A stretch of DNA of 64,000 nucleotides. Source: Galbitalea soli. GTDB taxonomy: Bacteria; Actinomycetota; Actinomycetes; Actinomycetales; Microbacteriaceae. The stretch's first letter is position 1. Every line of letters starts with the position of its first letter. The translations under genes were made by a program, and so were the position numbers. The stretch lies in the NCBI RefSeq assembly GCF_010686725.1, contig NZ_JAAGWZ010000005.1, positions 62,001 through 126,000 on the forward strand, read 5' to 3'. This document shows, one piece after another, positions 3,336-47,337 of this stretch. The notes under the pieces are model-generated. The model saw nothing but the letters and a program-made list of their open reading frames with translations. It was not told where the DNA came from and did not search any database.

Positions 3336-3363
3336 GAACACCATTGTGGTGCATGACCCCGTT

Positions 3364-4269: not shown

Positions 4270-4309
4270 CCATCGAGTGTAAAGACGGCGCGCGGGGCTA
4301 ACCTCTCTG
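4258..4309. repeat. 52-bp direct repeat, left copy (exopolysaccharide island boundary)
   Basis: This 52-bp segment is identical to 11456-11507 and in the same orientation. It contains the first four codons of trhO (minus strand), the trhO leaderless -10 box TACACT, and a plus-strand TAACCT box that now points at no start codon. The bases flanking it differ from those around the right copy, so 52 bp is the exact extent. Confidence 0.93.
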
Positions 4310-4323
4310 TCGACTCACCCGTC

Positions 4324-4339
4324 GCCGCGATGGCGCGGC
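4324..4339. terminator. Short hairpin downstream of GH16 gene
   Basis: GCCGCG-atgg-CGCGGC forms a perfect 6-bp stem just beyond the GH16 stop codon. On the plus strand it is followed by TTTAT, so it could also stop transcription from the orphan TAACCT box in the left 52-bp repeat. Function is inferred only from position. Confidence 0.35.
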
Positions 4340-4340
4340 T

Positions 4341-5171: not shown

Positions 5172-5255
5172 GGGAAATCTCCTTCCTCAGGGCAACGAAT
5201 GCTGGCCCCGAGGATGGCCCATCAACGCGTGGGCACGCAAGTCGACGGTGACTCG

Positions 5256-5465
5256 TCAGGAGTGCAGAGCGAACTCCGACACCGAGTTTCGTGCCTCCTC
5301 AAGGAGCGCACGATCTCGCCTCGACGGCAACCAGCCGAGAGGCTCGCCGTACTCCGTCTCGATGGTGTGGCGAGCGTCCTCGCGAGCGACAAAGCGCGCC
5401 CCGAGCAGACTGACCGCTACCAAAACGAGTAACGATCCTATAAACAGCGTTGTTTCCAGCATCAT
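5256..5465 (-). CDS. Small single-pass membrane protein, hypothetical
   Basis: A 69-residue open frame starting with two methionines, then one hydrophobic helix (residues 4-24, LETTLFIGSLLVLVAVSLLG) and a charged C-terminal part with a run of Arg, Asp and Glu residues. I do not recognise it. The frame can be extended upstream but that part has no clear signal. A 6-bp inverted repeat lies directly in front. It sits between the GH16 gene and the divergent synthase operon; a real but weakly supported gene. Confidence 0.4.
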   Translation of the reverse strand: MMLETTLFIGSLLVLVAVSLLGARFVAREDARHTIETEYGEPLGWLPSRRDRALLEEARNSVSEFALHS

Positions 5466-5470
5466 TGATG

Positions 5471-5487
5471 GACCCCAATCTGGGGTC
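5471..5487. promoter_or_regulatory. Inverted repeat GACCCC-N5-GGGGTC
   Basis: A perfect 6-bp palindrome with a 5-base spacer (GACCCCAATCTGGGGTC) immediately upstream of the small membrane-protein frame and within the divergent control region of the island. It could be an operator or the base of a leader hairpin; nothing else supports it. Confidence 0.3.
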
Positions 5488-5926
5488 AAGACTAGCGGCC
5501 AATGCGGGCCCGCGACACCCCCGAGTAGCGAACTCCACGCTCCGTCAACGAACACGAAATGTGCTGATCAACGCCGATTCCTGGAAACTCGCAACGAGTT
5601 GCATTCGACGATGTCGAATTTCTGTGTCGCCGCAGTCACGTGCGATGCGGCTCATTTTGCGATTTACACGCTCGACACAAAGACGTAACTTGCGGCGTCG
5701 AAGCGCGTCGCTATATTGACGACAACCACCCGCCGTGTCGACTCACCTCGCACGGTTGCACCTCCGCATTACGAACGCCGGATTCCCAACGACGCGCATA
5801 CGGTGACAGTCCCGAACCACCTGCGATCCCCCCAAGAACAGGCGTAAAAATGCTGACCCGAGGCGTTATTTGTCGTGCCCGAAACCACTCGCTCGTCGCC
5901 CTCTGCGGTGAAGGTGGGGTGCGTTC
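5488..5926. other. Gene-free leader and promoter region of the polysaccharide operon
   Basis: About 440 bases with no credible gene and clearly lower G+C than the rest of the window (for example ACTTGC and TATATTGACG around 5686-5720). It must hold the promoter for the synthase gene and its long untranslated leader. I looked for known riboswitch cores and saw none I could defend. AAGGTGGGG just before 5927 is the probable ribosome binding site. Confidence 0.5.
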
Positions 5927-7666: not shown

Positions 7667-7818
7667 TGTCTGAACTGCACGAGTCCTCCTCCGGCGAGCC
7701 CAAAACCGCCTTCGCGAATCACCTGAGTCTGATCGAGGCGATCAGCTACACCTCTGTGATCGGATTCATCGCCGCGATGGCCGCGGGCCTCTTCGACGGG
7801 ATGGTGCCCTGGAAATGA
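7666..7818 (+). CDS. 50-residue membrane protein coupled to the polysaccharide synthase
   Basis: A complete small gene that standard length cut-offs would drop. Its ATG overlaps the synthase stop (TGATG at 7664-7668) and its TGA overlaps the acyltransferase ATG (ATGA at 7815-7818), which is strong evidence of translation. The protein has a polar N-terminus of about 27 residues and one hydrophobic segment (SYTSVIGFIAAMAAGLF) near the C-terminus, ending Val-Pro-Trp-Lys. I infer a small accessory subunit of the synthase or the acyltransferase; there is no family I recognise. Confidence 0.72.
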   Translation: MSELHESSSGEPKTAFANHLSLIEAISYTSVIGFIAAMAAGLFDGMVPWK

Positions 7819-9911
7819 GCGCGCCCACGATTATTCGACCCACCGATGGCCGGATGCCCTCCGCGGCGGTGCCCTCGCGTCCTCGCCGAGCATTCCAGAC
7901 CGATATCGAGGGTCTCCGCGCGATCGCCGTGATCGCGGTGGTCGCATTCCATGCGACGATCCCCGGGTTCGGCGGCGGCTTCGCCGGCGTCGATGTCTTC
8001 TTCGTCATCTCTGGATACCTCATCACCGGTCAATTGATGCGAGAGTTTCTCTCCACCGGAACCGTCAAGCTCTTCGGGTTCTACGCTCGTCGCGCGAAGC
8101 GACTTCTCCCGGCCGCAACCGTCGTGCTTGTCGCGATCGCGGTGGCCACCGTTCTCTTGGAGCCGCTGCTGGGCGTCTACCGATCGATGCAGGACCTGCT
8201 TGCTGCGGCGCTCTATGCCACCAACTGGCACTTCATCGGCTTGGGAACGGACTACCTCGCGCAGTCGACGGCGGACAGCCCGGTCTTGCACTTCTGGTCG
8301 CTTGCGGTCGAAGAGCAGTTCTATCTCGCGTGGCCGATGCTGATCATCGCGGCTGGGTACGTCGCCCGTCGCCGGGGCATGGCGGCTGTGGGCGCTGTCG
8401 CGTCAGCTGTTGCGGCGGTGACCGTCGCATCCTTCATCGTGGGCGCCATTCTCACCGTGAGCGACCCCAAGCTCGCCTACATGGCAACCCAGGCGCGTGC
8501 GTGGGAATTCGGTGTCGGAGCGCTGATCGCACTGGCGGCGGGCAAGCTCCAGTCGGTCGCCGCCCGAGGCCCGGCACGAGGAGTTGGCTATGTGCTGGGT
8601 TGGGCGGGTCTCGCGGCCATCCTGTTCTCGGTCCTCACGTTCGACAGCGCGACTCCGTTCCCCGGCTACGCCGCACTCGTGCCGACCCTGGGAACGGGAG
8701 CGATCATTGCTGCGGGACTTCTCGTCGGCACCCGCATGGGCGGCGTCGGGTCGGTTCTGTCCCTCAGGCCGATTCGCTATATCGGGCGCCTCTCCTACGC
8801 CTGGTATCTGTGGCACTGGCCGGTGATGGTTCTCGTCGAGATCAAGACGAGCACCCTCTCCTGGCAGATGCGTTCCGTGCTCATGGTGGTGGCGCTTCTC
8901 TTGGCCGCCGCAACACTTCACCTGATCGAGATGCCCATCTCCCGGTGGAAAACGGTCGCCCGAAACGTCGGCCCCGCATTCGCGCTCGGTGTGCTGTGCA
9001 TGGTGACGGCATCCGCGTTGGTGCTGGGAATCGGGGCGACGGCGGTCAATGCCCTAGGTACCGCGGGTGCTCAAGTCTCTGCGGCCCAGATTCGCGCCGC
9101 ATTCGGGTCGGGCAAGGAATCCACGTCTGGCGCCGTCGTTCCGAGCGCGCTCGACGCTGTCAAAGATGTCCCAAAACCAGATGGATGCCTCTTCGACCAT
9201 GAAAAGGGTTTGACTGCCGCTTGCACGATCGGGCCCGTGGGCGGGCTTCCGGTAGTGCTCTTCGGCGATAGCCATGCTCACCAGTGGCTTCCGGCGATCG
9301 AGCAAATGGCTATCCCTCGGGGATGGCGGCTCACAGTGTTCGCTAAGTCAGGGTGCCCAGTTCCGAATATCGCGCCACGAACCGACGGCAGTCGATTCTC
9401 CGAGCCCGAATGCATCGCATGGCGTCAGGCCGCGATCACGGAAATCACTCGAACAATTCACCCCTCGTTGATCATCGTTTCGTCTCTCGACAACTACATT
9501 CCCGACAAGGGAGAAGTGCTGACAGCCTGGAACAACTCTCTGGACAAACTGCGGACGGCCGGCGTGCCCATTGCGTACATTCGCGACACCCCTATTCCGC
9601 CGCGGGATGTGCCGACCTGCATCTCTGGGTCATTGACCAACTGGTCCAAGTGCTCGTTCGCTCCGAGAAATGAAGTTGAGCCCGTTATCCAGCAGGCACT
9701 GATCGGCAACGAAGACAAGGTCACAGTTATCGATCTGTACAAGTACTTCTGCGACGCAACGACCTGCCCAGCGGTCAAGAACGGGGTGCTGCTGTACCGC
9801 GACAGCTCGCACATCACCGCTACGGCGGCTAAAGCCCTCTCTCAGCCCTTTGAACAGGCGTTTGTCGACGCGGGGCTCATTCCGAAGGCGAAGTCGACCG
9901 CTCAAGGGTGA
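7815..9911 (+). CDS. Polysaccharide O-acyltransferase (acyltransferase 3 plus SGNH domain)
   Basis: Membrane O-acetyltransferase of 698 residues, OafA type. Residues about 30-400 form the ten-helix acyltransferase-3 domain, opening with DIEGLRAIAVIAVVAFHA and containing DVFFVISGYLITGQL and YARRAKRLLPAA. After a linker the extracytoplasmic SGNH domain begins with the nucleophile motif FGDSHAHQW (Ser near 485) and ends with the DSSHIT block (Asp-x-x-His near 662). Such enzymes move acetyl groups from acetyl-CoA to a surface sugar polymer. Placement directly behind the synthase suggests that the island's polymer is acetylated. Confidence 0.92.
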   Translation: MSAPTIIRPTDGRMPSAAVPSRPRRAFQTDIEGLRAIAVIAVVAFHATIPGFGGGFAGVDVFFVISGYLITGQLMREFLSTGTVKLFGFYARRAKRLLPAATVVLVAIAVATVLLEPLLGVYRSMQDLLAAALYATNWHFIGLGTDYLAQSTADSPVLHFWSLAVEEQFYLAWPMLIIAAGYVARRRGMAAVGAVASAVAAVTVASFIVGAILTVSDPKLAYMATQARAWEFGVGALIALAAGKLQSVAARGPARGVGYVLGWAGLAAILFSVLTFDSATPFPGYAALVPTLGTGAIIAAGLLVGTRMGGVGSVLSLRPIRYIGRLSYAWYLWHWPVMVLVEIKTSTLSWQMRSVLMVVALLLAAATLHLIEMPISRWKTVARNVGPAFALGVLCMVTASALVLGIGATAVNALGTAGAQVSAAQIRAAFGSGKESTSGAVVPSALDAVKDVPKPDGCLFDHEKGLTAACTIGPVGGLPVVLFGDSHAHQWLPAIEQMAIPRGWRLTVFAKSGCPVPNIAPRTDGSRFSEPECIAWRQAAITEITRTIHPSLIIVSSLDNYIPDKGEVLTAWNNSLDKLRTAGVPIAYIRDTPIPPRDVPTCISGSLTNWSKCSFAPRNEVEPVIQQALIGNEDKVTVIDLYKYFCDATTCPAVKNGVLLYRDSSHITATAAKALSQPFEQAFVDAGLIPKAKSTAQG

Positions 9912-10004
9912 CCTCCCTGCTGCGTGACATCCGCCTCATCGGCAGCTACCACTGGCTGCTTGCACCAAGATTCTGTGCCGCTCTAAATGAGAAGGAGAAC
10001 CACG

Positions 10005-11423
10005 ATGACCACCGAAATCGGCTCTTCGCTGCCGCCCATTGTCGAGAATCCGCGCATGACGGTGATCGGCACTGGATACCTGGGCGCGACGCACGCCATC
10101 TGCATGGCGTTGCTCGGGTTCGACGTGCTCGGCGTCGATGTGGACTCGTCGAAGATCGCAGCGCTTCAATCGGGACGAGTTCCGTTTTACGAGCCCGGTC
10201 TGTCCGATGCACTGTCGGAGGCGCTCGCGAGCGGGCGGCTGCGCTTCAGCACCGACTTCGCCGAGGCCGCCGAGTGGGGTGACGTACATTTCCTGTGCGT
10301 CGGCACACCGCAGTCCAAGGGATCCGATGCGGCAGACCTGACCTATGTCGATCTCGCCTTCACGGAACTGGCGAGCCGAATCACTCGGCGCGCCTTGTTG
10401 GTGGGCAAGTCGACGGTGCCGATCGGCACGGCCGCACGTCTCACCTCGCTCGTGCAGGCCGTCTCGCCGGCGGGCACCGAACTCGAGCTCGCGTGGAACC
10501 CGGAGTTTCTCCGCGAGGGCTACGCGGTCAAGGACACACTGCATCCCGACCGTCTGGTGTTCGGGGTGCAATCCGTGTGGGCCGAGCGCCAGCTGGCGGC
10601 AGCCTTCCGACCGATCCTGGAGGAGGGCACTCCGTTGGTGGTCGCTGACCTCGCGACCGCTGAACTGGTCAAGGTCGCCGCCAACTCCTTCCTGGCCACC
10701 AAGATCTCCTATATCAATGCAATGGCGGAGGTGTGCGAGGCCACCGGCGCAGACGTCAACTTGTTGGCGACGGCGCTGGGCCACGACTCGCGGATCGGAT
10801 CGCGGTTTCTCAAGCCTGGACTCGGTTTCGGTGGGGGATGCCTGCCGAAGGACATCCGCGCGTTCGCTCACCGCGCCGACGAACTCGGTGTGGGCCAGGC
10901 AGTGGCGTTCCTCAGGGAGGTGGACTCAATCAACCAGCGCCGCCGCGTTCGCACCGTCAATCTCGTGGAAGAGCTCGCGGGCGGATCAGTGCGTGGGCTC
11001 CGGGTCGCGGCGCTCGGGGCAGCCTTCAAGCCGAACTCCGACGACATTCGCGACGCCCCAGCGCTCGACGTCGCACGGATGCTGCATGAGGCGGGCGCGA
11101 TCGTCACGGTCTATGACCCCGAGGCGATGGAAAACGCGAAGCGCTCCTACCCTGAATTGAACTACGCGGACTCGCTCGCGCAGGCGGTGGAGGAGGCGGA
11201 CGTCGTCGCGCTGTTGACGGAGTGGCAGGAGTTCCGCGACGCAGACCCGGACGATTTGGCCGAGCTGGTCGCGCATCGCCGCATCGTCGACGGGAGGCAC
11301 GCGCTCGATGCCGCCGACTTTCGGGCGAAGGGATGGGAGTTCCGCGCGCTCGGACGCCCAGCAAACCCGTCAACCGTGTCGCTCGAGGCGGATGCGCGCG
11401 AGGGCCTTCTCGCCTTCGCGTAG
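10005..11423 (+). CDS. ugd: UDP-glucose 6-dehydrogenase
   Basis: Oxidises UDP-glucose to UDP-glucuronate with two NAD+; 472 residues. The N-terminal Rossmann fold has VIGTGYLGATHA; the central part has NPEFLREGYAV and KVAANSFLATKISYINA; the catalytic cysteine is in GFGGGCLPKD (Cys279); the C-terminal domain has GAAFKPNSDDIRDAP. I start at the ATG at 10005, preceded by GAAGGAGA at proper spacing, not at the in-frame start at 9987. A 93-base gap separates it from the acyltransferase, but the shared orientation and context make it the precursor-supply gene of the island. Confidence 0.95.
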   Translation: MTTEIGSSLPPIVENPRMTVIGTGYLGATHAICMALLGFDVLGVDVDSSKIAALQSGRVPFYEPGLSDALSEALASGRLRFSTDFAEAAEWGDVHFLCVGTPQSKGSDAADLTYVDLAFTELASRITRRALLVGKSTVPIGTAARLTSLVQAVSPAGTELELAWNPEFLREGYAVKDTLHPDRLVFGVQSVWAERQLAAAFRPILEEGTPLVVADLATAELVKVAANSFLATKISYINAMAEVCEATGADVNLLATALGHDSRIGSRFLKPGLGFGGGCLPKDIRAFAHRADELGVGQAVAFLREVDSINQRRRVRTVNLVEELAGGSVRGLRVAALGAAFKPNSDDIRDAPALDVARMLHEAGAIVTVYDPEAMENAKRSYPELNYADSLAQAVEEADVVALLTEWQEFRDADPDDLAELVAHRRIVDGRHALDAADFRAKGWEFRALGRPANPSTVSLEADAREGLLAFA

Positions 11424-11425
11424 CC

Positions 11426-11440
11426 GAGCCCGGCGGGCTC
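11426..11440 (+). terminator. Tight hairpin after ugd
   Basis: GAGCCC-GGC-GGGCTC, a perfect 6-bp stem with a 3-base loop, begins two bases after the ugd stop codon. It is the likely end of the island transcript and lies just inside the right 52-bp repeat. Confidence 0.5.
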
Positions 11441-11455
11441 CTGGAGCGGAACCGC

Positions 11456-11507
11456 GGAGACGGGCATCCATCGAGTGTAAAGACGGCGCGCGGGGCTAAC
11501 CTCTCTG
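11456..11507. repeat. 52-bp direct repeat, right copy (exopolysaccharide island boundary)
   Basis: Identical to 4258-4309 over 52 bases. This copy keeps the functional TAACCT promoter box of the glycosylase gene and carries a useless duplicate of the trhO promoter and its first four codons (Met-Pro-Val-Ser, minus strand), which now read into the end of ugd. The pair therefore marks where a 7.2 kb block entered a former trhO/glycosylase divergent spacer. Confidence 0.93.
11497..11502 (+). promoter_or_regulatory. Leaderless -10 box TAACCT of the glycosylase gene
   Basis: TAACCT ends six bases before the ATG at 11509, the spacing at which transcription would begin on the A of the start codon. 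No Shine-Dalgarno is present. The same arrangement recurs before several other genes in the window. Confidence 0.6.
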
Positions 11508-11508
11508 C

Positions 11509-12432
11509 ATGGGTGCGACGGATGTTCGGGAGACGGTCTATCGTCCCGAGCATCCGGTCTCGCTGCGGCACGTGCTCGGCCCGCTGGTGCGCGGCGCCGC
11601 CGACCCCACCCACCGCTGGGAGGGCGCGGCGCTCTGGCGCACGGTGCTCACGCCGGACGGCCCCGCGACGCTGCACCTCGCCGTGAGCGGAGCCGCCGTG
11701 CACGCGACCGCCTGGGGGCCGGGTGCCGAGCGCGCGATCGCGGGTGTGCCCGAGCTGTGTGGGGCGGGGGACGACTGGGACGGGCTCGATGTGAGCGACC
11801 GCCCCTTCCTCGCCGAGGCGCGACGACGCGTTCCCGGGCTGCGGTTGACCCGCACGAACGCCGTGTTCGAGGCGCTCGTCGCCGGGATTCTGGAGCAGAA
11901 GGTGACGGGGCTCGAGGCGCGACGCGCCTGGCGCTGGCTCGTGACGGCGTATGGTGCGGTGGCACCCGGTCCCGCACCCGAGGGGATGCGGGTGATTCCG
12001 GCCCCGGAGGTCTGGCGCCGCATCCCGTCGTGGGACTGGCATCGTGCGGGGGTCGGCCCGAACCGCTCGGAGACCGCGGTGCGCGCGGCGACCGTCGCGA
12101 GCTCGCTCGAGCGCACCCTCGAACTCGGCCGGGGAGGCGAGGAGGTCGCCCGGCGATTGCGGTCGCTCCCCGGCATTGGCGTCTGGACGGCGGCCGAGAC
12201 CACGCAGCGCGCACACGGCGACCCCGACTCGCCGAGCGTCGGCGACTACCACCTGGCCTCCCTCGTGGGCTGGGCGCTCGTCGGCGCGCCCGTGGACGAC
12301 GACGGCATGCTCGAACTGCTCGCGCCCTACGCGGGCCACCGCCACCGGGTGGTGCGGCTGATCGAGGCGAGCGGCTTCCGCAAGCCCGCCTTCGGCCCCC
12401 GGATGACCGTGCAGGACCACCGCCGCCACTGA
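11509..12432 (+). CDS. DNA-3-methyladenine glycosylase II-like (HhH-GPD, AlkA type)
   Basis: Base-excision repair enzyme of 307 residues that should remove alkylated purines from DNA. The N-terminal third is the AlkA-like beta domain; the helix-hairpin-helix is LRSLPGIGVWTAAETTQRAH (about residues 218-237), followed by the catalytic aspartate in VGDYHLAS (Asp246). LVAGILEQKVTGLEARRAW near 125 is the usual helical-bundle entry. It is monocistronic, starts leaderless from the TAACCT box in the repeat, and was originally divergent from trhO. Confidence 0.9.
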   Translation: MGATDVRETVYRPEHPVSLRHVLGPLVRGAADPTHRWEGAALWRTVLTPDGPATLHLAVSGAAVHATAWGPGAERAIAGVPELCGAGDDWDGLDVSDRPFLAEARRRVPGLRLTRTNAVFEALVAGILEQKVTGLEARRAWRWLVTAYGAVAPGPAPEGMRVIPAPEVWRRIPSWDWHRAGVGPNRSETAVRAATVASSLERTLELGRGGEEVARRLRSLPGIGVWTAAETTQRAHGDPDSPSVGDYHLASLVGWALVGAPVDDDGMLELLAPYAGHRHRVVRLIEASGFRKPAFGPRMTVQDHRRH

Positions 12433-12563
12433 GGGTTGGCCGGCGCGGGTGCGCGCGCCGCGCGCCTCCACCCGCGCCTTCAGGCGCGCCTCCTCCCGCA
12501 CGCACCACGCGCGCCTCCCGCGCGTCTCCACCCGCACCACCCGCGCGCCTGCACCCGCACACT
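12433..12563. other. Low-complexity C/G-rich spacer
   Basis: An imperfect tandem of a CGCGCGCCTCCACCCGC-like unit fills the spacer after the glycosylase stop codon. Short open frames here are compositional and have no start signal. It is one of several repeat stretches attached to gene ends in this window. Confidence 0.55.
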
Positions 12564-12668
12564 TTGCAGGATGAGTCGGCGCGCGGCGCCGCCCTCTTCT
12601 CGGCGAGCCCAGCAGGGAGGCGGGCCGGCGGTGCCAGGCTCCCTCTTACGGCGGCGCGGCTCCTGCAA
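12564..12668 (+). repeat. 105-bp palindromic intergenic element, copy A
   Basis: The segment is bounded by TTGCAGGA and its exact complement TCCTGCAA. Aligned without gaps to the reverse complement of 47558-47662 it matches at about 80 of 105 positions, strongest at both ends and around GGCGGGCCGGCG. The outer arms continue as GC-rich complementary blocks (GGCGCCGCC near the left, GGCGGCGCGG near the right), so a long hairpin is possible. There is no coding capacity; a MITE-like or REP-like element or a conserved RNA hairpin are the options. Confidence 0.82.
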
Positions 12669-12676
12669 TGTGTGAC

Positions 12677-12770
<94 letters not shown>

Positions 12771-12814
12771 CGCGACGGCCGGCGCGGGCGCCGGCGGCGG
12801 GTTCGTTGGCGCCC

Positions 12815-12888
12815 TCAACAAACTGTAAATATTTCTGTAAAAAATTATTAGTAAAGTAAGTTGACAGATAAATCCAGCTGAGTAGAGT
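12815..12888 (+). promoter_or_regulatory. Strong consensus promoter with AT-rich upstream element
   Basis: TTGACA at 12861-12866, a 16-base spacer and TAGAGT at 12883-12888 give a near-consensus promoter, preceded by about 45 very AT-rich bases (around 12818-12860) resembling an UP element. Such a stretch is striking in this genome. Transcription to the right would start near 12895 and run through the 6C-like RNA in the antisense sense, or define its true strand. Confidence 0.55.
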
Positions 12889-12897
12889 GTTCTTCAT

Positions 12898-13035
12898 CAA
12901 GCCGCGAGGCGAACAAATCGGGGGGTTTGGTTCTCGCGCAAGGGCTGGCCGGTGCCGCGTACAACGCCGCCGCACAGCCGCCAGGGGAGGAGCGCCGGTA
13001 TCGGGGGGTTCGGCGCTCCTTCCCCCTTCCCCTCA
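12898..13035 (-). ncRNA. 6C-like small RNA (two C6-loop hairpins)
   Basis: On the minus strand two stem-loops expose the same 11 bases, AACCCCCCGAT, in their loops. Hairpin 1 has the stem GGAGCGCCG/CGGCGCTCC (13020-12989 region). Hairpin 2 has CGCGAG/CTCGCG plus an inner AACCAAA/TTTGTT (12938-12903). Two hairpins with six-cytosine loops are the defining mark of the actinobacterial 6C RNA, thought to pair with G-rich ribosome binding sites. The exact ends are not visible. The strong promoter at 12861 points the other way, so strand needs proof. Confidence 0.6.
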
Positions 13036-13044
13036 TCACAGACC

Positions 13045-13086
13045 CCGGCAGGTCGGCGTCTTTTCGGGTGTGCGTCGACCTGCCGG
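13045..13086. terminator. Long inverted repeat downstream of the FAD oxidoreductase gene
   Basis: CCGGCAGGTCG at 13045-13055 pairs perfectly with CGACCTGCCGG at 13076-13086 and extends inward by three more pairs including one G-T. The 14-base loop contains TTTT. A second hairpin, CGCGGGC-cagt-GCCCGCG, lies at 13094-13111. Together they probably end the minus-strand oxidoreductase transcript, or a plus-strand RNA from the promoter at 12861. Confidence 0.55.
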
Positions 13087-13230
13087 TCTCCCGCGCGGGC
13101 CAGTGCCCGCGGTGACGATCAGCGCGCCGCTGCTGAGCGCGGGCGCGCCGCAGGGCGGTCCGGCACAGGCGAGCGCGCCGGTCCAGCGGGCCCGGTCGGG
13201 TCGCGGGCGCGGGTCGCAGGGCAAGCGGGC

Positions 13231-14805
13231 TCAGCGACCGCCGCCGACGCCCGTTGCCTCGAGCACCGCCATCGCCGCGTTGTGCCCGCCGAGCCCACTG
13301 ACCGCGCCACCGCGCTGCGCGCCCGATCCGCAGAGCAGGATCCGCGGGTGCGCCGTCGCGACGCCCCAGCGCTCCGCCGCGGTGGCGAGCGGAGCGTCGT
13401 CCTCCAGGAACGGCCACGACAGCGGCCCGTGGAAGATGTTTCCGCCCGGCATGGCGAGCGCGTGTTCGAGGTCGAGGGTGGTCTTCGTCTCGATCGTCGG
13501 GCGCCCCGCGGCGTCTGCGAGCAGCAGCTCCTCGATCGGCTCGGCGAGCACCGAGTCGAGCGAGCGGATGACCGCCGCCTGATACTCGTCCCGTCGGGCG
13601 TCGTTCGTCTCTTCGGTCACCAGCCGGTCCGGCGCGTGCAGGGCGAAGACGGTGAGCGTCTGGGCGCCCGAGGCGCGCAACTCGGGCGACAGGATGCTCG
13701 GGTCGGTGAGCGAGTGGCAGTAGATCTCGCAGGGCAGCGGATCCGGCACCGACCCCGCGCTCGCACTCGCGTAGGCGGCGTCGAGCTGTGCCCAGCCCTC
13801 GTTGATGTGGAAGGTGCCGCCGAAGGCGGCGGCCGGGTCCACCGCGGGGTCGCGCAGTCGCGGCAGTCGCTTCAGCAGGAGGTTGACCTTCACTTGCGCG
13901 CCCTCGGGTCGGGCGACCGCGGGGCCGCCCCCGGCCCCGCCCGCCTCGAGCAGGCGCGCGAGCACGGCGGGCGCGACGCCGGAGAGCACGACCTCCGCGT
14001 GGAGTGGCCGCTCGCGGTCATCCAGCCGATAGCGCACCTCGCCGTCGGGCGTCACCGCGGTGACCTCGGCGCCGGTCACGAGCGTGGCGCCGGCGCGTCG
14101 CGCGGCGTTCAGCAACTCGCCCGAGACGCTGCCCATGCCGCCGATCGGCACGTCCCAGTCGCCCGTTCCGCCGCCGATCACGTGGTAGAGGAAGCAGCGG
14201 TTGGCGGCGAGCGTCTCGTCGACGTTGGGGGCGAAGGTGCCGATGAGGGCGTCGGTGAGCACGACTCCGCGCACGAGGTCGTCGCCGAAGGTCTCGCGGA
14301 TACCCGACCCCACCGGCTGCTCGATGAAGCGGTGCCACAGGGCGTCGTCGCCGACCGCGGCCCGCGCCTCCGAGCGGCGCAGCAGCGGCTCGGTGACCGT
14401 GGGGAACAGGGCGCGCGCGAGCGTGGCCGTGCCCGCGTAGAACTCCGACCACGCGCCGGCGTCGGCACCGAGCGCCCGCGCCGTCGCGGCGGGGTCGCCG
14501 CCATCGACGAGAACGCCCGTCTCCGTGCCGGGGCGGGGGGTGTAGGAGGAGTAGCGGCGACGCGCGAGCCGGATATCGAGGCCGAGGTCGTGGATGATGC
14601 GGGAGGGGAGGAGTGACACCAGGTAGGAGTAGCGCGAGAGCCGGGCATCCACCCCCTCGAAGGCCTGTGCCGAGACCGCTGCGCCGCCGAGATGATCCTG
14701 TCGTTCGAGCAGGATGACCGACTTGCCGGCCCGCGCCAGATACGCCGCCGCCACCAGCGCGTTGTGCCCGCCGCCGACGATGGCGACGTCGTAGCGGCCG
14801 GTCAC
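13231..14805 (-). CDS. FAD-dependent phytoene-desaturase-like oxidoreductase
   Basis: A 524-residue flavoprotein of the COG1233 family (phytoene dehydrogenase and related proteins). The N-terminus carries the dinucleotide motif VAIVGGGHNALVAAAYLARAG; the C-terminus has the second FAD block LLCGSGAQRGGAVSGLGGHN. There is no carotenoid gene nearby, so it is better read as a relative of unknown substrate than as CrtI. Translation starts at the GTG at 14805, overlapping the marR stop as GTGA; the frame upstream of that belongs to marR DNA. It should be cotranscribed with and possibly controlled by marR. Confidence 0.85.
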   Translation of the reverse strand: MTGRYDVAIVGGGHNALVAAAYLARAGKSVILLERQDHLGGAAVSAQAFEGVDARLSRYSYLVSLLPSRIIHDLGLDIRLARRRYSSYTPRPGTETGVLVDGGDPAATARALGADAGAWSEFYAGTATLARALFPTVTEPLLRRSEARAAVGDDALWHRFIEQPVGSGIRETFGDDLVRGVVLTDALIGTFAPNVDETLAANRCFLYHVIGGGTGDWDVPIGGMGSVSGELLNAARRAGATLVTGAEVTAVTPDGEVRYRLDDRERPLHAEVVLSGVAPAVLARLLEAGGAGGGPAVARPEGAQVKVNLLLKRLPRLRDPAVDPAAAFGGTFHINEGWAQLDAAYASASAGSVPDPLPCEIYCHSLTDPSILSPELRASGAQTLTVFALHAPDRLVTEETNDARRDEYQAAVIRSLDSVLAEPIEELLLADAAGRPTIETKTTLDLEHALAMPGGNIFHGPLSWPFLEDDAPLATAAERWGVATAHPRILLCGSGAQRGGAVSGLGGHNAAMAVLEATGVGGGR

Positions 14806-21122: not shown

Positions 21123-21392
21123 ATGCACACGGTCTCAGTCAGCGAAGCGAAGGACAAGCTCTCGACGTTGGTCGAGAGTGTCGAATCCACCCACGACGCA
21201 GTGGTGATCACTCGCCACGGCAAGGCCGCCGCGGTGCTCATCTCGCCCGACGATCTGGATGCGCTGCAGGAGACGCTCGCCTGGCTGTCCGACCCGGCTC
21301 ACGCCGCGGAGATGGCTGAAGCCGAGGGTGACATCGCGAGCGGCCGCATGCTCTCTCTGGAGGAAGTGCGTGCTCAACTGGCACAGCGGTGA
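21123..21392 (+). CDS. Phd/YefM-family antitoxin
   Basis: An 89-residue antitoxin with the Phd/YefM N-terminus MHTVSVSEAKDKLSTLVESV, the central VITRHGKAAAVLISPDDLDAL block, and an acidic C-terminal tail that should wrap the toxin. It binds DNA as a dimer and neutralises the downstream toxin. The ATG at 21123 follows TAGAAT by seven bases (leaderless); earlier in-frame ATGs would start upstream of the promoter. The stop overlaps the toxin start as GTGA. Confidence 0.92.
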   Translation: MHTVSVSEAKDKLSTLVESVESTHDAVVITRHGKAAAVLISPDDLDALQETLAWLSDPAHAAEMAEAEGDIASGRMLSLEEVRAQLAQR

Positions 21393-21667
21393 CGGCCGCG
21401 CCGTATGAGGTCAGGCTCTCCCGGCCCGCGACGCGGGCGCTCGGCCGCCTCGATCCCAAGCTGGTCGACGCGGTCCTGAGATTTCTCGGAGGACCGCTCA
21501 CTGAGAACCCGATGAGAGTGACGAAGCCCCTCGCCGCCGAGCTCGAAGGACTGCGGGCGGGCTACGTCGGCATCGCCTATCGCGTACTCGTTCGCATCGA
21601 CGAGGACGCCCGCGTGGTGAACGTGCTGCGCATCGCGCACCGCTCCGACGTGTACGGCATTCGGTAG
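21389..21667 (+). CDS. RelE/ParE-superfamily toxin
   Basis: A 92-residue basic protein with the RelE-type C-terminal block YRVLVRIDEDARVVNVLRIAHRSDVYGIR. Relatives cleave mRNA in the ribosome A-site and slow growth. The GTG start overlaps the antitoxin stop by four bases, giving the usual antitoxin-first order. ParE (gyrase) activity is less likely given the YRVLVRID and HRSDVY pattern, but cannot be excluded. Confidence 0.92.
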   Translation: MTAAPYEVRLSRPATRALGRLDPKLVDAVLRFLGGPLTENPMRVTKPLAAELEGLRAGYVGIAYRVLVRIDEDARVVNVLRIAHRSDVYGIR

Positions 21668-41360: not shown

Positions 41361-41848
41361 CTGCCCGGCTGGGAGGACGCGTAGTGGCGGGGTGAGCTGT
41401 CGCTCGCGGCGCTGCTCATCGACCGCCCCGGCGACGTGATGCTGTCGGCACGGGTGACGGTCGACTTCGCGGGTACCTTCGATGCGGGCGTGCTGTGCCT
41501 GTGGGAGTCGGAGGAGTGCTGGGCGAAGCTGTGCTTCGAGTACTCCCCGCGGGGCCAGCCGATGGTCGTGTCGGTGGTGACCCGCGGGCACTCCGACGAC
41601 GCCAACGCGATCGCGATCGACTCGCCGAGGGTTTGGTTGCGCGTCGCGCGCATCTGCGTGGCCTACGCGTTCCACTACTCGACCGACGGGGTGTACTGGC
41701 ATTTCGTGCGCCTGTTCCGACTGGGTGACGACGGCCGGGCCCGACTCGGGATGCTCGCTCAAGCTCCCGTGGGCGAGGGGTGCACGCGCGCTTCGACCAC
41801 GTGCGGCTCGCCCGCGAGACCGCCGGGAACCTCCGCGACGGGAGCTGA
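41361..41848 (+). pseudogene. Decayed DUF1349 gene
   Basis: The central frame reads as a DUF1349 protein (VTVDFAGTFDAGVLCLW, WAKLCFEYSPRGQPMVVSVV, DDANAIAIDSPRVWLRVARI). The usual N-terminal part is reduced to Leu-Pro-Gly-Trp-Glu-Asp-Ala and an in-frame stop at about 41381. Near 41780 a one-base frame change is needed to continue into FDHVRLARETAGNLRDG. Both defects point to a pseudogene, unless sequencing errors explain them. Members of the family are often encoded beside carbohydrate genes, which fits the place. Confidence 0.72.
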
Positions 41849-41928
41849 CCGCGCCCTGCGGCCGACTGCGCCCTGCGGCTGACCGCGCCCTGCGGCTGAC
41901 TGCGCCCCGCGGCTGACCGCGCCCTGCG
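41844..41928. repeat. Tandem array, five 17-bp units
   Basis: Five units of the type GCTGACCGCGCCCTGCG; units 1, 3 and 5 are identical, units 2 and 4 share the variant GACTGCG. The first unit includes the TGA that ends the DUF1349 remnant. Confidence 0.93.
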
Positions 41929-42114
41929 GCGCTCGCTTTGCTGAGAATCCTCCCGATGCCGTGATGTCGGTTTGCGTTCATACGTGACTATATGTCTAGG
42001 ATGTACGCCCATTGGACGTTATCCACAGGCGACGCACTCGTGGTGCACCCCTCGCACCTCCCTGTGATATTGATTGTTCCTCAATAACCCGCGAGTTACG
42101 AAGGAGACAACCAG
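41929..42114 (+). promoter_or_regulatory. Promoter region of the lipoprotein/ABC operon
   Basis: This 186-bp gene-free region is clearly AT-richer than its neighbours. TTGCGT near 41972 and TAGGAT near 41997 are a possible, widely spaced promoter pair. GAAGGAGA shortly before the ATG at 42115 is a strong ribosome binding site. I see no clear operator. Confidence 0.45.
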
Positions 42115-42558
42115 ATGATTCACACGAAACGGAGCCGGCGGCGGCGCGCAGTGATGGCGGTGGCGGCCACGGCGGCCATCGCGGTCGGAGTGGTGACGGG
42201 GCCGGCGGTTGCGGCGTATGCGGAAACTCTGAGTCTTGGGCCAAGCCACGTCTATTGGTCGAAGACGTTTTACACCAAGGCCCACTACAAGCACGTGACT
42301 GGCCATGCCGCGATTTCGAATGTCCGGGTGCACGAGACGTGCGGGGCGGGGGGATACGTCAACATCGGATTTCGCACGCATATCGAGCAGTACGGTGAAT
42401 CCACGCAGTTCCCGTCGATTCGGAACGGAAGCGGAGCGACCTTCCGAAACGTTGATGGCCCGGCGGGCTACCGCTACACCTTCAGCTCCGGCTTCTATTA
42501 CTTCAACGCCAAGCTCGGGTGTGAGGCAGGCACGTGGTCCGGAACGGTCCACTGGTGA
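42115..42558 (+). CDS. Small secreted protein of unknown function
   Basis: A 147-residue protein with a basic n-region (KRSRRRR), a hydrophobic stretch to about residue 33 and a likely cleavage after AYA. The mature part of about 108 residues is rich in Tyr, His, Gly and Ser, has two cysteines (HETCGAGG and KLGCEAG) that could form a disulfide, and ends GTWSGTVHW; it looks like an all-beta domain. It does not match a family I know; a resemblance to lactococcin-972-type bacteriocins is too weak to claim. It is the first gene of the operon and overlaps the next as TGATG. Confidence 0.8.
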   Translation: MIHTKRSRRRRAVMAVAATAAIAVGVVTGPAVAAYAETLSLGPSHVYWSKTFYTKAHYKHVTGHAAISNVRVHETCGAGGYVNIGFRTHIEQYGESTQFPSIRNGSGATFRNVDGPAGYRYTFSSGFYYFNAKLGCEAGTWSGTVHW

Positions 42559-43115
42559 TGGGTCGTTCGTCGCTAGCGTTCGCGGCCTCAATCGGTCTGG
42601 TGTTGGCCCTCGTGGGCTGCACGTCCTCGCCCCATTCAGCAAAGAGTCCAGGCGTGGAATCGCCTACGTCCATTCCAACGTCTCAGTCCGGTTTCGTCGC
42701 GGCGACGGAATCGAGTGCGAACGCTGAATACAAGCGAAGCATCGCGAAAATGCCTGCTCCGCTTCCCTCTGGCACGTCATTTCCAGCGAGTATCTCAGCG
42801 GCAGAACTCCCTCCCGCAGGCGAGGGAATCGTCGAGGAAGGCATCGGCCGGAACAAGGCATGGTTCACGTGGCTCTGCGCCTGGGAAGCCTCGTACCTCG
42901 ATGCGTACGCGGCTGGTGATGCCAAGCAGTCGAAGTTGGCCGCGTCGATGATCGAGCTCTGGTCTCGCTCCGACTTCTATCGCGACTCGGTCGACGATCC
43001 TAGTCACGGTTGGGTCGACAACGTGATCGCCCCGATGAAGCTCGACGATCCATCCGGTGTCAAGCAGGATCACGAGTCGATGTGCGCCGACTACCCCACG
43101 GTGCCGACGAAATGA
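42558..43115 (+). CDS. Paralogous lipoprotein 1 of 3 (WLCAWE family)
   Basis: A 185-residue lipoprotein (signal MGRSSLAFAASIGLVLA, lipobox LVGC) with a Ser/Pro-rich linker and then the domain shared by the next two genes: YKRSIAKMPAPLPSG, WFTWLCAWEASYLDAYAAGD, DDPSGVKQDHESMC. Two cysteines are conserved in all three copies (WLCAWE and the one 13-14 residues from the end), perhaps a disulfide. The function is unknown. TGATG overlap upstream, ATGA overlap downstream. A GTG one codon upstream is an alternative start. Confidence 0.85.
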   Translation: MGRSSLAFAASIGLVLALVGCTSSPHSAKSPGVESPTSIPTSQSGFVAATESSANAEYKRSIAKMPAPLPSGTSFPASISAAELPPAGEGIVEEGIGRNKAWFTWLCAWEASYLDAYAAGDAKQSKLAASMIELWSRSDFYRDSVDDPSHGWVDNVIAPMKLDDPSGVKQDHESMCADYPTVPTK

Positions 43116-43708
43116 GGGCGAACTGGGCCCGCCGCAATGTGAGCGTCCGCGGCAGGGGACTCTTCGCTCCCCTCATCGGTGGTGCGGTGATGATGGTCTT
43201 GACCGCATGCTCGGGATCGCCCCACGCGACACCGTCTCATCAGGCGAACGTGCCCGGCAAGACCGTGCCCTCGGCGGAGCCGTCCTTCGTCGCGCTGACG
43301 AAGGGCAGCGCGGCTGAGGAGTACAAGCGGAATATCGCCGCCGTTCCCGAGCCGCTACCTTCGGGTCGCGCTTACCCGCCGGGACTCCCTGCTGACTTCG
43401 TGCCCGACCCGGAGGATGGCCTTCTGGAGGCGGGCGGCGCGCGGAACGTCGTCTGGTACACGTGGCTCTGCGCGTGGGAGTCGTCGTACCTCGATTCCTT
43501 CGCCGCCGGTGACAAGGCGAAGACGGCACTCGCGGAGTCCATGCTCGAGCGGTGGGCAACGATGGACTTCTATCAAAACGTGGAAGACGACCCGGAGAAG
43601 GGCTTCATCACCCACGTACTCGACCCCATGAAGTTGGGCGATCCGTCCGGAGTTAAACAGGATTACCAGTCACTTTGCGGCGAACTCCCCACGGTGGCGG
43701 CGAAATGA
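43112..43708 (+). CDS. Paralogous lipoprotein 2 of 3 (WLCAWE family)
   Basis: A 198-residue lipoprotein: longer basic N-terminus, helix GLFAPLIGGAVMMVL, lipobox LTAC. The domain repeats the pattern of its neighbours: YKRNIAAVPEPLPSGRAYPP, WYTWLCAWESSYLDSFAAGD, GDPSGVKQDYQSLC, ending PTVAAK. It is most similar to copy 3 in the PEPLP-GRAYPP segment and to copy 1 in the SYLD-AAGD segment. ATGA overlaps on both sides. Confidence 0.86.
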   Translation: MRANWARRNVSVRGRGLFAPLIGGAVMMVLTACSGSPHATPSHQANVPGKTVPSAEPSFVALTKGSAAEEYKRNIAAVPEPLPSGRAYPPGLPADFVPDPEDGLLEAGGARNVVWYTWLCAWESSYLDSFAAGDKAKTALAESMLERWATMDFYQNVEDDPEKGFITHVLDPMKLGDPSGVKQDYQSLCGELPTVAAK

Positions 43709-44298
43709 GCGAGCGACAGAGCCGCCCCGCCGGCGCGGTGACGGGCCGCGCGATTACCGTCGTGATCGTGGGCGGGCTGATCGGCGCAATCCTTACGGGG
43801 TGCGAGAGTGCGCCCGGTACGTCGTCGGCGTCGGGTGGGGGAACGCCCGGGTTCGCCGAGCCCACGGCACCGCCTCTGATTCCCGAGACGCAGAGAAACG
43901 CCGATCGTGAGTACCGGCGCGTCAGCCGGCTCATCCCGGAGCCGCTCCCACCCGGCCGCGCCTACCCTCCGGCGCTGCCCGACCGCATGATCCCAGCCTC
44001 CTCGGATGGCGTCATGGAACAGGGTTTGGGGCGCTACGTCGCGTGGTACACCTGGCTCTGCGCCTGGGAGTCCGCCTATCTGACCGCTTCCGCATCAGAC
44101 GACAAGCCGGCGCTCGCCGCGGCAGAGGCGAAGCTCAACCAATGGCCCTCGATGGAGTTCCATCGCGACGACGAGGACGACCCCGACCACGTCTGGACCA
44201 CGAACGTGCTCGACAAGATGAACCTCGATGACCCATCCGGGGTGAAGAGCGACTACGACTCGCTCTGCTCGGACTTTCCCACGGTGGCGGCGAAATGA
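43705..44298 (+). CDS. Paralogous lipoprotein 3 of 3 (WLCAWE family)
   Basis: A 197-residue lipoprotein with signal helix AITVVIVGGLIGAI and lipobox LTGC. Shared blocks: YRRVSRLIPEPLPPGRAYPP, WYTWLCAWESAYL, DDPSGVKSDYDSLC and the terminal PTVAAK. The middle is the most diverged of the three. Tandem duplication with divergence is the simplest origin. ATGA overlap on both sides couples it to the export genes. Confidence 0.86.
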   Translation: MSERQSRPAGAVTGRAITVVIVGGLIGAILTGCESAPGTSSASGGGTPGFAEPTAPPLIPETQRNADREYRRVSRLIPEPLPPGRAYPPALPDRMIPASSDGVMEQGLGRYVAWYTWLCAWESAYLTASASDDKPALAAAEAKLNQWPSMEFHRDDEDDPDHVWTTNVLDKMNLDDPSGVKSDYDSLCSDFPTVAAK

Positions 44299-45104
44299 GG
44301 CGGGCACTCCTCGCGGCGACGGTCGCCGTCGCCGCACTGCTGCTCGCGGGGTGCACGCCCGCCGCGGTGCACCCCGCCGACCCGGAGCCCAGCTATGCGG
44401 GGCCGGCGAAGGTCACCGTGAAACGGAAGACGATCATCCCCGTGCTGTCGCTCGGCGCCGAGGTGCGCAGCGACGTCGAGTACCAGGTGACCGCACCCGT
44501 GGCCGGCACCATCCGGCGCGGAGCGCATGATCAACCGGTCATCACCGCCCCGGACGGCACGACCCACGCGGTCGACCTCCCGACCGGCGCGCGCATCACC
44601 GACATCCTGGTGGCCGACGGGCAGCGCGTCGCCAAGGGGCTGCCGATCGCGCTCGCGACCGAGACCGGCTTCGCCCTCGTCGCCGCGGTGGAGGGCGCCG
44701 ACCTGCTGCGCTTCGCCGTGACGCCGCTCTCGGCGAAGGCGCAGATCGTGGCGAGCGGGTCGCCGTTCGACTGCCGGTTCCTCGACCCGAGGCCCACCAC
44801 CCTGCCCGACTCGAAAGACGAGCACCTCATGGCCTGCCAGATTCCGGATGACCAGCCCGTCGTACTCGGAATGACCGGCACGATCGCCTTCCGCTTCCCC
44901 GGCGCGACCGACGTGCTGACCCTCCCCACGCTCGCCGTCGCCGGAACGCTCGACAACGGGGCGGTCACCCTCGTGCGCGGCGGCAGCCGCTCGACCGTGA
45001 AGGTCGGCCTCGGCATCACCGACGGCTTCGACGTGCAGATCACCTCGGGCCTGCACGAGGGCGACACCGTGGAAGTGCCGAGCCCCTCGCTGTTCAATGG
45101 CTGA
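44295..45104 (+). CDS. MacA-like periplasmic-adaptor lipoprotein
   Basis: A 269-residue lipoprotein (signal MRRALLAATVAVAALLL, lipobox LAGC). The core resembles membrane-fusion proteins: VTAPVAGTIRRGA, then LPTGARITDILVADGQRVAKG as in barrel-sandwich domains, and at the end GLGITDGFDVQITSGLHEGD as in MacA/RND adaptors. No long coiled coil is present, which suits a monoderm cell. It should work with the ATPase and permease that follow. Confidence 0.85.
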   Translation: MRRALLAATVAVAALLLAGCTPAAVHPADPEPSYAGPAKVTVKRKTIIPVLSLGAEVRSDVEYQVTAPVAGTIRRGAHDQPVITAPDGTTHAVDLPTGARITDILVADGQRVAKGLPIALATETGFALVAAVEGADLLRFAVTPLSAKAQIVASGSPFDCRFLDPRPTTLPDSKDEHLMACQIPDDQPVVLGMTGTIAFRFPGATDVLTLPTLAVAGTLDNGAVTLVRGGSRSTVKVGLGITDGFDVQITSGLHEGDTVEVPSPSLFNG

Positions 45105-45831
45105 GCCGGTAATCCAACTGCGGGGCGTCGGCAAGGCGGTACCCGGCCTCCCGCACCTGCTCAGCGACGTCAGCCTGTCGGTCGAGCGCGGCAGCTCGGT
45201 GGCGATCATGGGCCGGTCGGGATCGGGCAAGAGCACCATGCTGTCGGTGCTCGGCCTGCTCGACCCCGACTTCGCGGGCGAGTACCTGCTGAACGGGCAG
45301 CGCGTCGATCGGCTGTCGTCGCGGGCGTGCGACCGCCTGCGCGGCACCGAGATCGGATTCGTCTTCCAGCGCTTCGCCCTGTTCGCCCACCTCAGCGCCC
45401 TCGAGAACGTCATGGTGCCGCTGCGACACCGGGGCGGGTCGACGGAGCGCGCGATGCGACACCGCGCGCACGCCGCACTCGACAGCGTCGACATGGGGCA
45501 CGCCGCCCGCCGGCGCCCCCGCCACCTCTCCGGCGGGGAGCAGCAGAGGGTCGCGATCGCCCGGGCGCTCATCAACGACCCGGCGCTCATCCTCGCCGAC
45601 GAGCCCACCGGATCGCTCGACGCCGACACCGGCCGCACCATCGTCAGCCTGCTGCTCGGCCGGGTCGCCGAACAGGGCGCCGCGCTCGTCGTCGTCACCC
45701 ACGAGCACGACGTCGCGGCCGAGATGGATGACCTGCTGCGGCTCACCCGCGGCACCCTCGCCCCGGGTTCCGAGGTGCCCGCGCCCGCCGCCGACCACCG
45801 CCCGCCCGCCCTCGCGGAGGCCGGCGCATGA
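45097..45831 (+). CDS. ABC transporter ATPase, MacB/LolD family
   Basis: A 244-residue ATPase: Walker A GRSGSGKST, Q-loop FVFQRFALF, signature LSGGEQQRVAIARAL, Walker B ALILADEPTGSLD, H-loop VVVTHEHD. The LADEPTGSLD form is typical of the MacB/LolD/FtsE group that drives extrusion of lipids, peptides or lipoproteins by mechanotransmission. It overlaps the adaptor gene by eight bases and the permease by four. Confidence 0.95.
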   Translation: MAEPVIQLRGVGKAVPGLPHLLSDVSLSVERGSSVAIMGRSGSGKSTMLSVLGLLDPDFAGEYLLNGQRVDRLSSRACDRLRGTEIGFVFQRFALFAHLSALENVMVPLRHRGGSTERAMRHRAHAALDSVDMGHAARRRPRHLSGGEQQRVAIARALINDPALILADEPTGSLDADTGRTIVSLLLGRVAEQGAALVVVTHEHDVAAEMDDLLRLTRGTLAPGSEVPAPAADHRPPALAEAGA

Positions 45832-46997
45832 ACCTCCTCCGGATCGCCCTGCAGTCCATCGCGGTCAACTGGGTGCGGACCCTGCTCGCGATCATCGCCC
45901 TCTCCTCCTCGGTCGTGGGGGTCGTCACCGTCGCCTCCGCCGCCGCGACCATCGAGACGACCGTCACCCACCGGGCCCTCATGGCCGACGGCTCGCCCTC
46001 CACCCTTCTCGTGAGCGGGCTGAACGGCGCGGAGGGCCTCACCGAGAGCGTCGAGTGGAAGGCGCAGCTCCAGCCCTACGTCGGTGGGGGCTCGGTCGCG
46101 CGGATCGCCCAACTCGAGTCGGCGACGATCGTGAGCGAGGGCCGGTCCGATTCGGTCGACATCTCCTTCACCGAGCCGGAGCTCACCCGCAACCACCCCT
46201 TCGAGGTGCTGGGCGGGCGATGGCTGGGCGGCCGTCGCGACACCGTCGCGGTGCCCGTTGTCGTGAACCGGCTGGAGGCGAACGCGCTCGACCTCCGCCT
46301 CGGCGGGGCGATCGAGCTGCGGGCGTCCACGGCCGAGACCACCCTGCAGGCGCTCGTCGTCGGAGTCGTCGAGGACGGGGCCCACGATCAGCGCGCCTAC
46401 GTCGCGCTCGCCGACGCCGACGCCTTCCTGCGCGGCAATCAGGCGCAGCTCACGACCTCGCTGGAGGTGGCGGCGCCCGGACTCGCCACCGAAGACCTGA
46501 CACGCCGCCTCAACGGGCTCTCCTCGCTGCGCGGAGTCCGGGTCGATTGGGCGGTGCAGCGGGTCGACACCGTGGGCGGGCTCCGGCAGGAGGTCGAGGC
46601 GACACGGTCCGCGTTCCTCGTCGTGGGGATCCTGGGCCTCGTGGCGGGGGCGGTCGCGGTGGCCAACATCGGCCTCAGCGCGGTGCGGGAGCGGTCATCC
46701 GAGCTGTCGCTCCGACGCGCGCTCGGTGCCCGCCGCTGGCACCTCCCCGCGGTGATGGTGCTCGAATCGCAGCTCATCGCCGTGGTCGCCGGCGTCGTCG
46801 CGATCGCGATGTCGTGGGCGATCTACCCGACGCTCGCTCAGCAGTTCGGCGCGCCCTACGGGATCGCCGCGCCGCCGTACCCGACCGCGGTCGCCGCCGC
46901 GGGGATCCTCGTCGGCATGGGGACCGCGCTGCTCGGGGGCCTCGTGCCCGCCGTGCACTCGATGCGCGCCCCCATCGCGAGCATCATGCGGGCGTAG
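45828..46997 (+). CDS. FtsX-like ABC permease, MacB type
   Basis: A 389-residue permease with one N-terminal helix (RTLLAIIALSSSVVGVVTVA), an extracytoplasmic domain of about 210 residues, and three C-terminal helices with the FtsX signature SAVRERSSELSLRRALGARR at about 284-303. With the ATPase and adaptor it makes a MacAB-like efflux or lipoprotein-handling machine. It ends the operon; a 36-bp repeat pair follows. Confidence 0.93.
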   Translation: MNLLRIALQSIAVNWVRTLLAIIALSSSVVGVVTVASAAATIETTVTHRALMADGSPSTLLVSGLNGAEGLTESVEWKAQLQPYVGGGSVARIAQLESATIVSEGRSDSVDISFTEPELTRNHPFEVLGGRWLGGRRDTVAVPVVVNRLEANALDLRLGGAIELRASTAETTLQALVVGVVEDGAHDQRAYVALADADAFLRGNQAQLTTSLEVAAPGLATEDLTRRLNGLSSLRGVRVDWAVQRVDTVGGLRQEVEATRSAFLVVGILGLVAGAVAVANIGLSAVRERSSELSLRRALGARRWHLPAVMVLESQLIAVVAGVVAIAMSWAIYPTLAQQFGAPYGIAAPPYPTAVAAAGILVGMGTALLGGLVPAVHSMRAPIASIMRA

Positions 46998-47028: not shown

Positions 47029-47109
47029 TCGGCCGCCCTCGGCTCAGCGCCGTTGCGGCGCCCGACCGCTCCGTCGGCCGCCGTCCGCTCACCGCCGTTG
47101 CGGCGCCCC
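47029..47109. repeat. Two-copy tandem repeat, 36-bp unit at 45-bp period
   Basis: GTCGGCCGCC...GTTGCGGCGCCC at 47029-47064 recurs at 47074-47109 with three or four mismatches. It follows the permease stop codon and runs into the end of the small convergent gene. Confidence 0.8.
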
Positions 47110-47337
47110 CGGCCGAGTGCGCCACCGCCGTGCCGCGACCCCGAAGGTGTACGCCCAGATCGGGATGACTGACGCCACGCCAATCCCCTCCGTGTGGGCC
47201 GAGCCCGAGATGTAGAGCACGTTGAGCGTCACGCTCCAAGCGACCGCGGCCACCAGCCACACCGTGCGCCACCACGGCCGGAACAGGTAGAACACCAGGT
47301 CGGCGCGAACGCCTCCGCGTTCGTGTGAATCGGTCAT
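47089..47337 (-). CDS. Small two-helix membrane protein, hypothetical
   Basis: An 82-residue protein with two hydrophobic segments (TVWLVAAVAWSVTLNVLYI and the GIGVASVIPIWAYTFGVAA stretch) joined by a short outer loop, and a basic C-terminal tail. GGGAAGGGA precedes the ATG at 47337 and TATAGT lies about 40 bases upstream. The last codons overlap the 36-bp repeat, so the tail may have been altered by repeat growth. Function unknown; it resembles the SCO4225-type small membrane proteins only in layout. Confidence 0.7.
   Translation of the reverse strand: MTDSHERGGVRADLVFYLFRPWWRTVWLVAAVAWSVTLNVLYISGSAHTEGIGVASVIPIWAYTFGVAARRWRTRPGAPQRR

Follow-up and report, generated by a model that had tools for sequence, protein, structure and literature searches.

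The 64,000-nucleotide window analysed here, a contiguous stretch of the Galbitalea soli genome (3.04 Mb; family Microbacteriaceae), carries at 42115-46997 on the plus strand an operon of seven genes that encode a small Sec-exported protein (SEC), three lipoproteins of one family (LP1, LP2 and LP3; the family is called LP) and a pump of the MacA/MacB type. The irreducible element of this operon is the pair of SEC and LP, not the set of seven genes. The best explanation, in which we have moderate confidence, is that SEC is a bacteriocin-like protein exported via Sec, with LPs that confer immunity and a MacAB-like pump that protects the producer.

All seven same-direction open reading frames were confirmed, and adjacent genes overlap at each of the six junctions. 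SEC (42115-42558) is joined to LP1 (42558-43115) by a 1-nt TGATG overlap; LP2 (43112-43708), LP3 (43705-44298) and the MacA/YknX-like adaptor lipoprotein (44295-45104) each follow with a 4-nt ATGA overlap. The MacB/LolD-type ABC ATPase (45097-45831) overlaps the adaptor by 8 nt, and the FtsX/MacB-type permease with its extracytoplasmic core domain (45828-46997) closes the operon after another 4-nt ATGA. The gene order and the unbroken series of overlaps are as given by the first-pass annotation, which was made from the DNA sequence. No promoter-like site was found in a promoter scan at the operon, and terminator-like sites were not above chance.

To place the operon in context, neighbourhoods of up to 18 kb were read around LP and MacA loci. 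The order SEC-LP-MacA-ATPase-FtsX, or remnants of it, occurs at about 16 loci, of which about 15 lie outside the window, and LP always adjoins. Because the gene order is conserved at these other loci, the operon is real, far beyond chance. Of the approximately 16 cassettes, 14 contain SEC in intact or broken form; L040 and L043 have none. A MacA profile search of 400 genomes of the window's family, whose top matches are the same loci from which the profile was built, gave scores above 279 bits in 10 genomes of 10 genera, each time with LP adjoining (10/10) and usually in the order SEC-LP-MacA-ATPase-FtsX. The scores then dropped sharply, and a generic MacA paralogue followed at 165 bits or less. 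In the more distant cassettes L053 and L057 LP stands at the end of the gene order. Outside the family, the five-gene set was found in Actinoplanes xinjiangensis (L144), at L126 and L127 in two more families of the phylum, and at L216 in one further family of the class. Because of this scattered distribution the cassette is considered accessory and probably transferred. A decaying copy was seen at L055 (7812-11608, in a one-contig genome), where SEC contains an internal stop and LP and FtsX are each split between frames.

The constant element emerges from a SEC profile search of 300 family genomes. All 21 confident SEC matches have an LP neighbour, directly adjacent in all but two; these are L053 and L057, with LP at the other cassette end. 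The pairing is more than a circular result, since five of the 21 (G260:C1:943722, G270, G196, G034 and G264) had no part in building the profile. The pump accompanies 10 of the matches and is absent from 11, and since pairs without a pump are about as frequent as pairs with one, the SEC-LP pair is the unit. A single indivisible seven-gene system, as first proposed, was therefore dropped, although the translationally coupled operon itself does recur. Occurrence apart from the ABC genes and a match to a characterised family had been named in advance as grounds against such a system; the former is what we see for 11 of the 21 SEC-LP pairs, whereas neither SEC nor LP matches a characterised family. 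SEC and LP adjoin in either order, often with a 4-nt overlap: pump-bearing pairs nearly all read SEC-LP, and pump-less pairs mostly LP-SEC with 4-nt overlaps (L051, L059, L067, L213). L067 is a second SEC-LP locus in the window's own genome, in LP-SEC order and without a pump. In another family, L214 reads SEC-SEC-LP, the mirror of SEC-LP-LP-LP in the window.

SEC has a Sec signal peptide with an AxA cleavage site (VAAYA|ET), which gives a mature protein nearer 111 residues than the 108 estimated earlier. The mature part contains one Cys pair, and its AlphaFold2 (AF2) model is an all-beta sandwich of modest confidence (predicted local distance difference test score (pLDDT) 75, predicted template modelling score (pTM) 0.60). 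No family was matched in Pfam, NCBIfam or PADLOC, and a profile search of the PDB found no significant relative. Compared with solved structures, the fold resembles generic jelly rolls only (PPC, CBM6, PirA), all non-significant (Foldseek E >= 0.01), and the matches in the VIA second look were common jelly rolls with Z <= 7.5.

The lipoboxes of LP1, LP2 and LP3 are ALVGC, VLTAC and AILTGC, and the three proteins have in common a WLCAWE motif as well as a second Cys that is conserved. LP2 shares 45-47% identity with LP1 and LP3, and in a tree of 35 LPs the three form a single clade (support 97/93); they are paralogous, as the first-pass annotation had it, and by sequence the array is a local tandem duplication. 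The same tree contains a separate LP duplication in L052 and a duplication of the whole SEC-LP pair in L051. The AF2 model of LP2 is a helical bundle, with residues 61-198 mostly above pLDDT 90. Searches of Pfam, NCBIfam and PADLOC matched no family, a profile search of the PDB gave no significant relative, and by Foldseek alone the best match to the fold was no better than E 1.6. With LP2 as query, relatives were found in 33 of 300 genomes of the family; a search of plasmids gave no match. LP-like domains also occur as the ectodomain of membrane proteins encoded with HAAS and PadR genes (L036, L038) and of transmembrane proteins adjoining ECF sigma factors (L217, L219, L220, L221), where the domain probably serves in sensing. 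Such ectodomains in putative sensors would be compatible with binding of SEC, but they also allow a signalling role. Small lipoproteins or fragments that contain Cys and look alike by eye form a second group near these loci, at L051 10436-10873, L056 13326-13856 and L222 2790-3479; the L056 and L222 copies have no Pfam match.

Judged from family matches, the pump is of the MacA/MacB type, divided among three genes. The adaptor, with lipobox LLLAGC and a conserved Cys pair, weakly belongs to RND_mfp (E 1.4e-10, residues 101-259, 40.6 bits, below the cut-off of 94.9). The ATPase and the permease are clearly members of the MacB superfamily. The ATPase matches ABC_tran (E 2.9e-32) and carries Walker A (GRSGSGKST), signature (LSGGEQQR) and Walker B (ILADEP) motifs. 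The permease matches FtsX (E 3.2e-13, 50.2 bits, cut-off 25.5) and, borderline and slightly under the cut-off of 27, MacB_PCD (E 3e-5, 24.8 bits); its closest PDB relatives are MacB (5nik, 5gko and 5lil, MacB chains at E 1e-9) and Spr0694-0695 (5xu1, E 1.6e-5). None of the pump proteins reaches the equivalog cut-off for LolD, MacA or MacB. Lipoprotein release of the LolCDE type was rejected at a LolD score of 199.9 bits for the ATPase (cut-off 307.75), as was an ATPase of the Lactococcin 972 type, for which TIGR03608 gave 179 bits (cut-off 254.85), less than LolD. A PADLOC anti-phage defence system was also rejected, the matches in the operon being to the generic ATPase only.

About a quarter of the SEC-LP pairs adjoin giant secreted proteins that combine Golvesin_C with GDSL or RHS parts and have a homologous region of about 1000 residues in common. 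Giants with Golvesin_C and/or a GDSL hydrolase lie at L041 6170-10192, L044 9284-13348, L047 1124-5731, L051 11709-16547 and L059 9445-13338, and those with Golvesin_C and RHS repeats at L037 3-5339 and L067 1-6690. The 22 genomes that bear SEC or LP contain eight Golvesin_C genes, six of them <=10 kb from a SEC-LP locus, where 0.07 would be expected (P ~1e-11). Golvesin_C genes were found in 5 of 160 family genomes, and the copies in G102 and G126 stand in unrelated context. The window's genome further contains a parallel locus (L222, G000:C2:484500-504400, at 2339-13882) whose parts show no homology that could be detected. A small secreted protein, a lipoprotein and a LysM-like lipoprotein are there divergent from a peptidoglycan-binding adaptor, an ATPase and an FtsX permease, with a 2292-residue Golvesin/SLT/RHS giant on the pump side. 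The architecture looks modular.

In the favoured mechanism, SEC would be exported via Sec and freed by signal peptidase as a beta-sandwich protein whose site of action would be the envelope of rival actinobacteria. The LPs, anchored on the outside of the producer's membrane, could provide specific immunity by binding SEC or by protecting its target, and three tandem copies arising from local duplication may broaden this immunity to SEC variants. Adaptor, ATPase and permease would together make up a MacAB-like pump of the Gram-positive kind, which would work from the extracytoplasmic side to clear SEC from the producer membrane. Toxicity of SEC, its binding by LP and its role as pump substrate are the steps that we infer. 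This proposal follows from the constant SEC-LP pairing, the accessory distribution and the LP duplication. It is also based on the loci where SEC is lost or broken while LP is intact (L040, L043, L045 and L048, against L037 alone for the reverse), on the covariation of SEC and LP identities (Mantel r 0.25, p 0.007, with near-duplicates left out and shared ancestry still in) and on the linkage of Golvesin_C giants to SEC-LP loci. Moreover, MacAB-like pumps of Gram-positives are known to act on such substrates, protecting against the Sec-exported toxin SDP and serving the bacteriocin AS-48 (PMC5985334). An exported toxin with immunity lipoproteins was also among the roles suggested in the first-pass annotation; a signal with receptors, another of its suggestions, is weighed below as a rival.

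Several observations weigh against a competition module. SEC matches no toxin in sequence, in structure it resembles generic jelly rolls only, and no member has a known activity. The 4:1 excess of loci that kept LP and lost SEC is too small for significance, and in L037 SEC and the pump are intact and it is LP that is frameshifted. SEC shows no striking arms-race signal, since among seven cassettes its mean pairwise identity (25%) is hardly lower than that of FtsX (30%); LP stands at 27, MacA at 33 and the ATPase at 48%. Because LP-like domains form the ectodomains of HAAS/PadR-associated and ECF-adjacent membrane proteins, LP may act in sensing or as a scaffold and not in immunity.

In view of the above, three other roles can be considered. 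The giants, which are linked to SEC-LP pairs far above chance, homologous over about 1000 residues and on the same strand after the SEC-LP genes in L041 and L059, could be the true clients, with SEC, LP and pump as accessory factors for their export, folding or surface display. This is unlikely: no giant was recognised in the stretch read at the window operon or at most of the loci with a pump (L039, L050, L052, L056, L126 and L144), the giants have signal peptides of their own, and the diversity of SEC would be left unexplained. No more probable is an envelope-stress or antimicrobial-resistance module, in which pump and LPs protect against envelope-active peptides of foreign origin, with SEC as a helper that binds the cell wall. 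Pumps such as Spr0693-0695 do confer antibiotic and peptide resistance (PMC5768738), and LP-like ectodomains occur in likely sensors next to PadR or ECF sigma factors, but the operon has neither a regulator nor a two-component pair, and pump-less SEC-LP pairs are as frequent as pump-bearing ones. That SEC is a secreted signal, with the lipoproteins as surface receptors and the pump managing its turnover, seems improbable. LP domains fused to membrane segments near transcription factors would suit ligand sensing, but the window operon lacks a transducer gene, three receptors for one ligand would be odd, and the ligand would be large and variable in sequence.

If the bacteriocin-like role is correct, SEC-LP adds to actinobacteria a two-gene competition module of unrelated protein families, one that came to light through its genomic neighbourhood, as neither protein is covered by a family model. 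Gram-positive MacAB-like pumps, whose substrates are mostly unknown, would gain a defined protein substrate, and the giant Golvesin/RHS/GDSL exoproteins a genetic context. Tentatively, SEC and LP could represent two undescribed, co-inherited actinobacterial families, Sec-dependent beta-sandwich bacteriocin-like proteins and helical immunity lipoproteins cognate to them, with an optional dedicated MacAB-like pump and often in islands beside giant Golvesin_C exoproteins carrying GDSL/RHS effectors.

In the window, the GC content at third codon positions (GC3) is 70-84% in SEC and LP1-3 and 93-95% in the pump and neighbouring genes, which suggests that the SEC-LP part is younger in this genome; the step is absent from other cassettes. 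In an empty-site test with five congeners the flanking genes were 48-61% identical and non-syntenic, so no clean empty site was found. A 17-bp tandem repeat present five times (GCTGACCGCGCCCTGCG) lies directly upstream at 41844-41930, and a looser array of 25-bp repeats directly downstream at 47034-47113. Elsewhere in the window, two overlapping genes at 21123-21667 resemble a Phd/RelE-type toxin-antitoxin module.

A search of the open literature gave no description of a SEC-LP-pump gene set, which is weak evidence of absence. The Lactococcin 972 family likewise comprises small Sec-exported, envelope-active proteins of Gram-positives with an ABC transporter. The operon, however, has no 7-transmembrane immunity-type gene and its ATPase is nearer LolD. 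Membership was dropped since the Lactococcin_972 profiles of Pfam and NCBIfam gave no match to SEC and eight relatives at E <= 1, and the ATPase is under the TIGR03608 cut-off. Lantibiotic immunity of the LanI/LanFEG type does not apply either, since lanthipeptide genes were not found at the locus: Pfam and NCBIfam detected no precursor or modification enzyme among the seven proteins, and none was seen by eye among the neighbours. As background to the comparisons that follow, AS-48 is a circular bacteriocin, and NisFEG lacks an adaptor and is not of the MacB type. Spr0693-0695 of S. pneumoniae resembles the operon in having adaptor, ATPase and permease genes in one operon, with a permease that is a sequence relative, but it lacks SEC and LP genes and is known for conferring resistance to drugs and peptides (PMC5768738).

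The earlier statement that no described system has this shape was too strong. In the SDP/YknWXYZ system of Bacillus, a Sec-exported toxin is likewise met by an adaptor, an ATPase and an FtsX/MacB-type permease encoded by separate genes, and the pump is thought to work from outside (PMC4887032, PMC5985334). SDP is a processed peptide of 42 residues, whereas SEC is an unrelated all-beta protein of about 111 residues whose translation is coupled to that of LP. The Bacillus system has no lipoprotein array, and its YknW belongs to the membrane proteins of the Yip1 type. The AS-48 locus of Enterococcus also joins a bacteriocin to a MacAB-like pump of separate genes, AS-48EFGH (PMC5985334), but AS-48E is a four-transmembrane protein and the locus contains neither LP-like lipoproteins nor SEC. 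A surface immunity lipoprotein and an ABC transporter that jointly protect the producer are known from NisI and NisFEG (PMC4094520, PMC4234265), although nisin is a lanthipeptide with its own modification and export machinery and a sequence link between NisI and LP was not found. By analogy, the gene set most likely works like SDP/YknWXYZ, AS-48/AS-48EFGH and NisI/NisFEG, with protein families unrelated to theirs.

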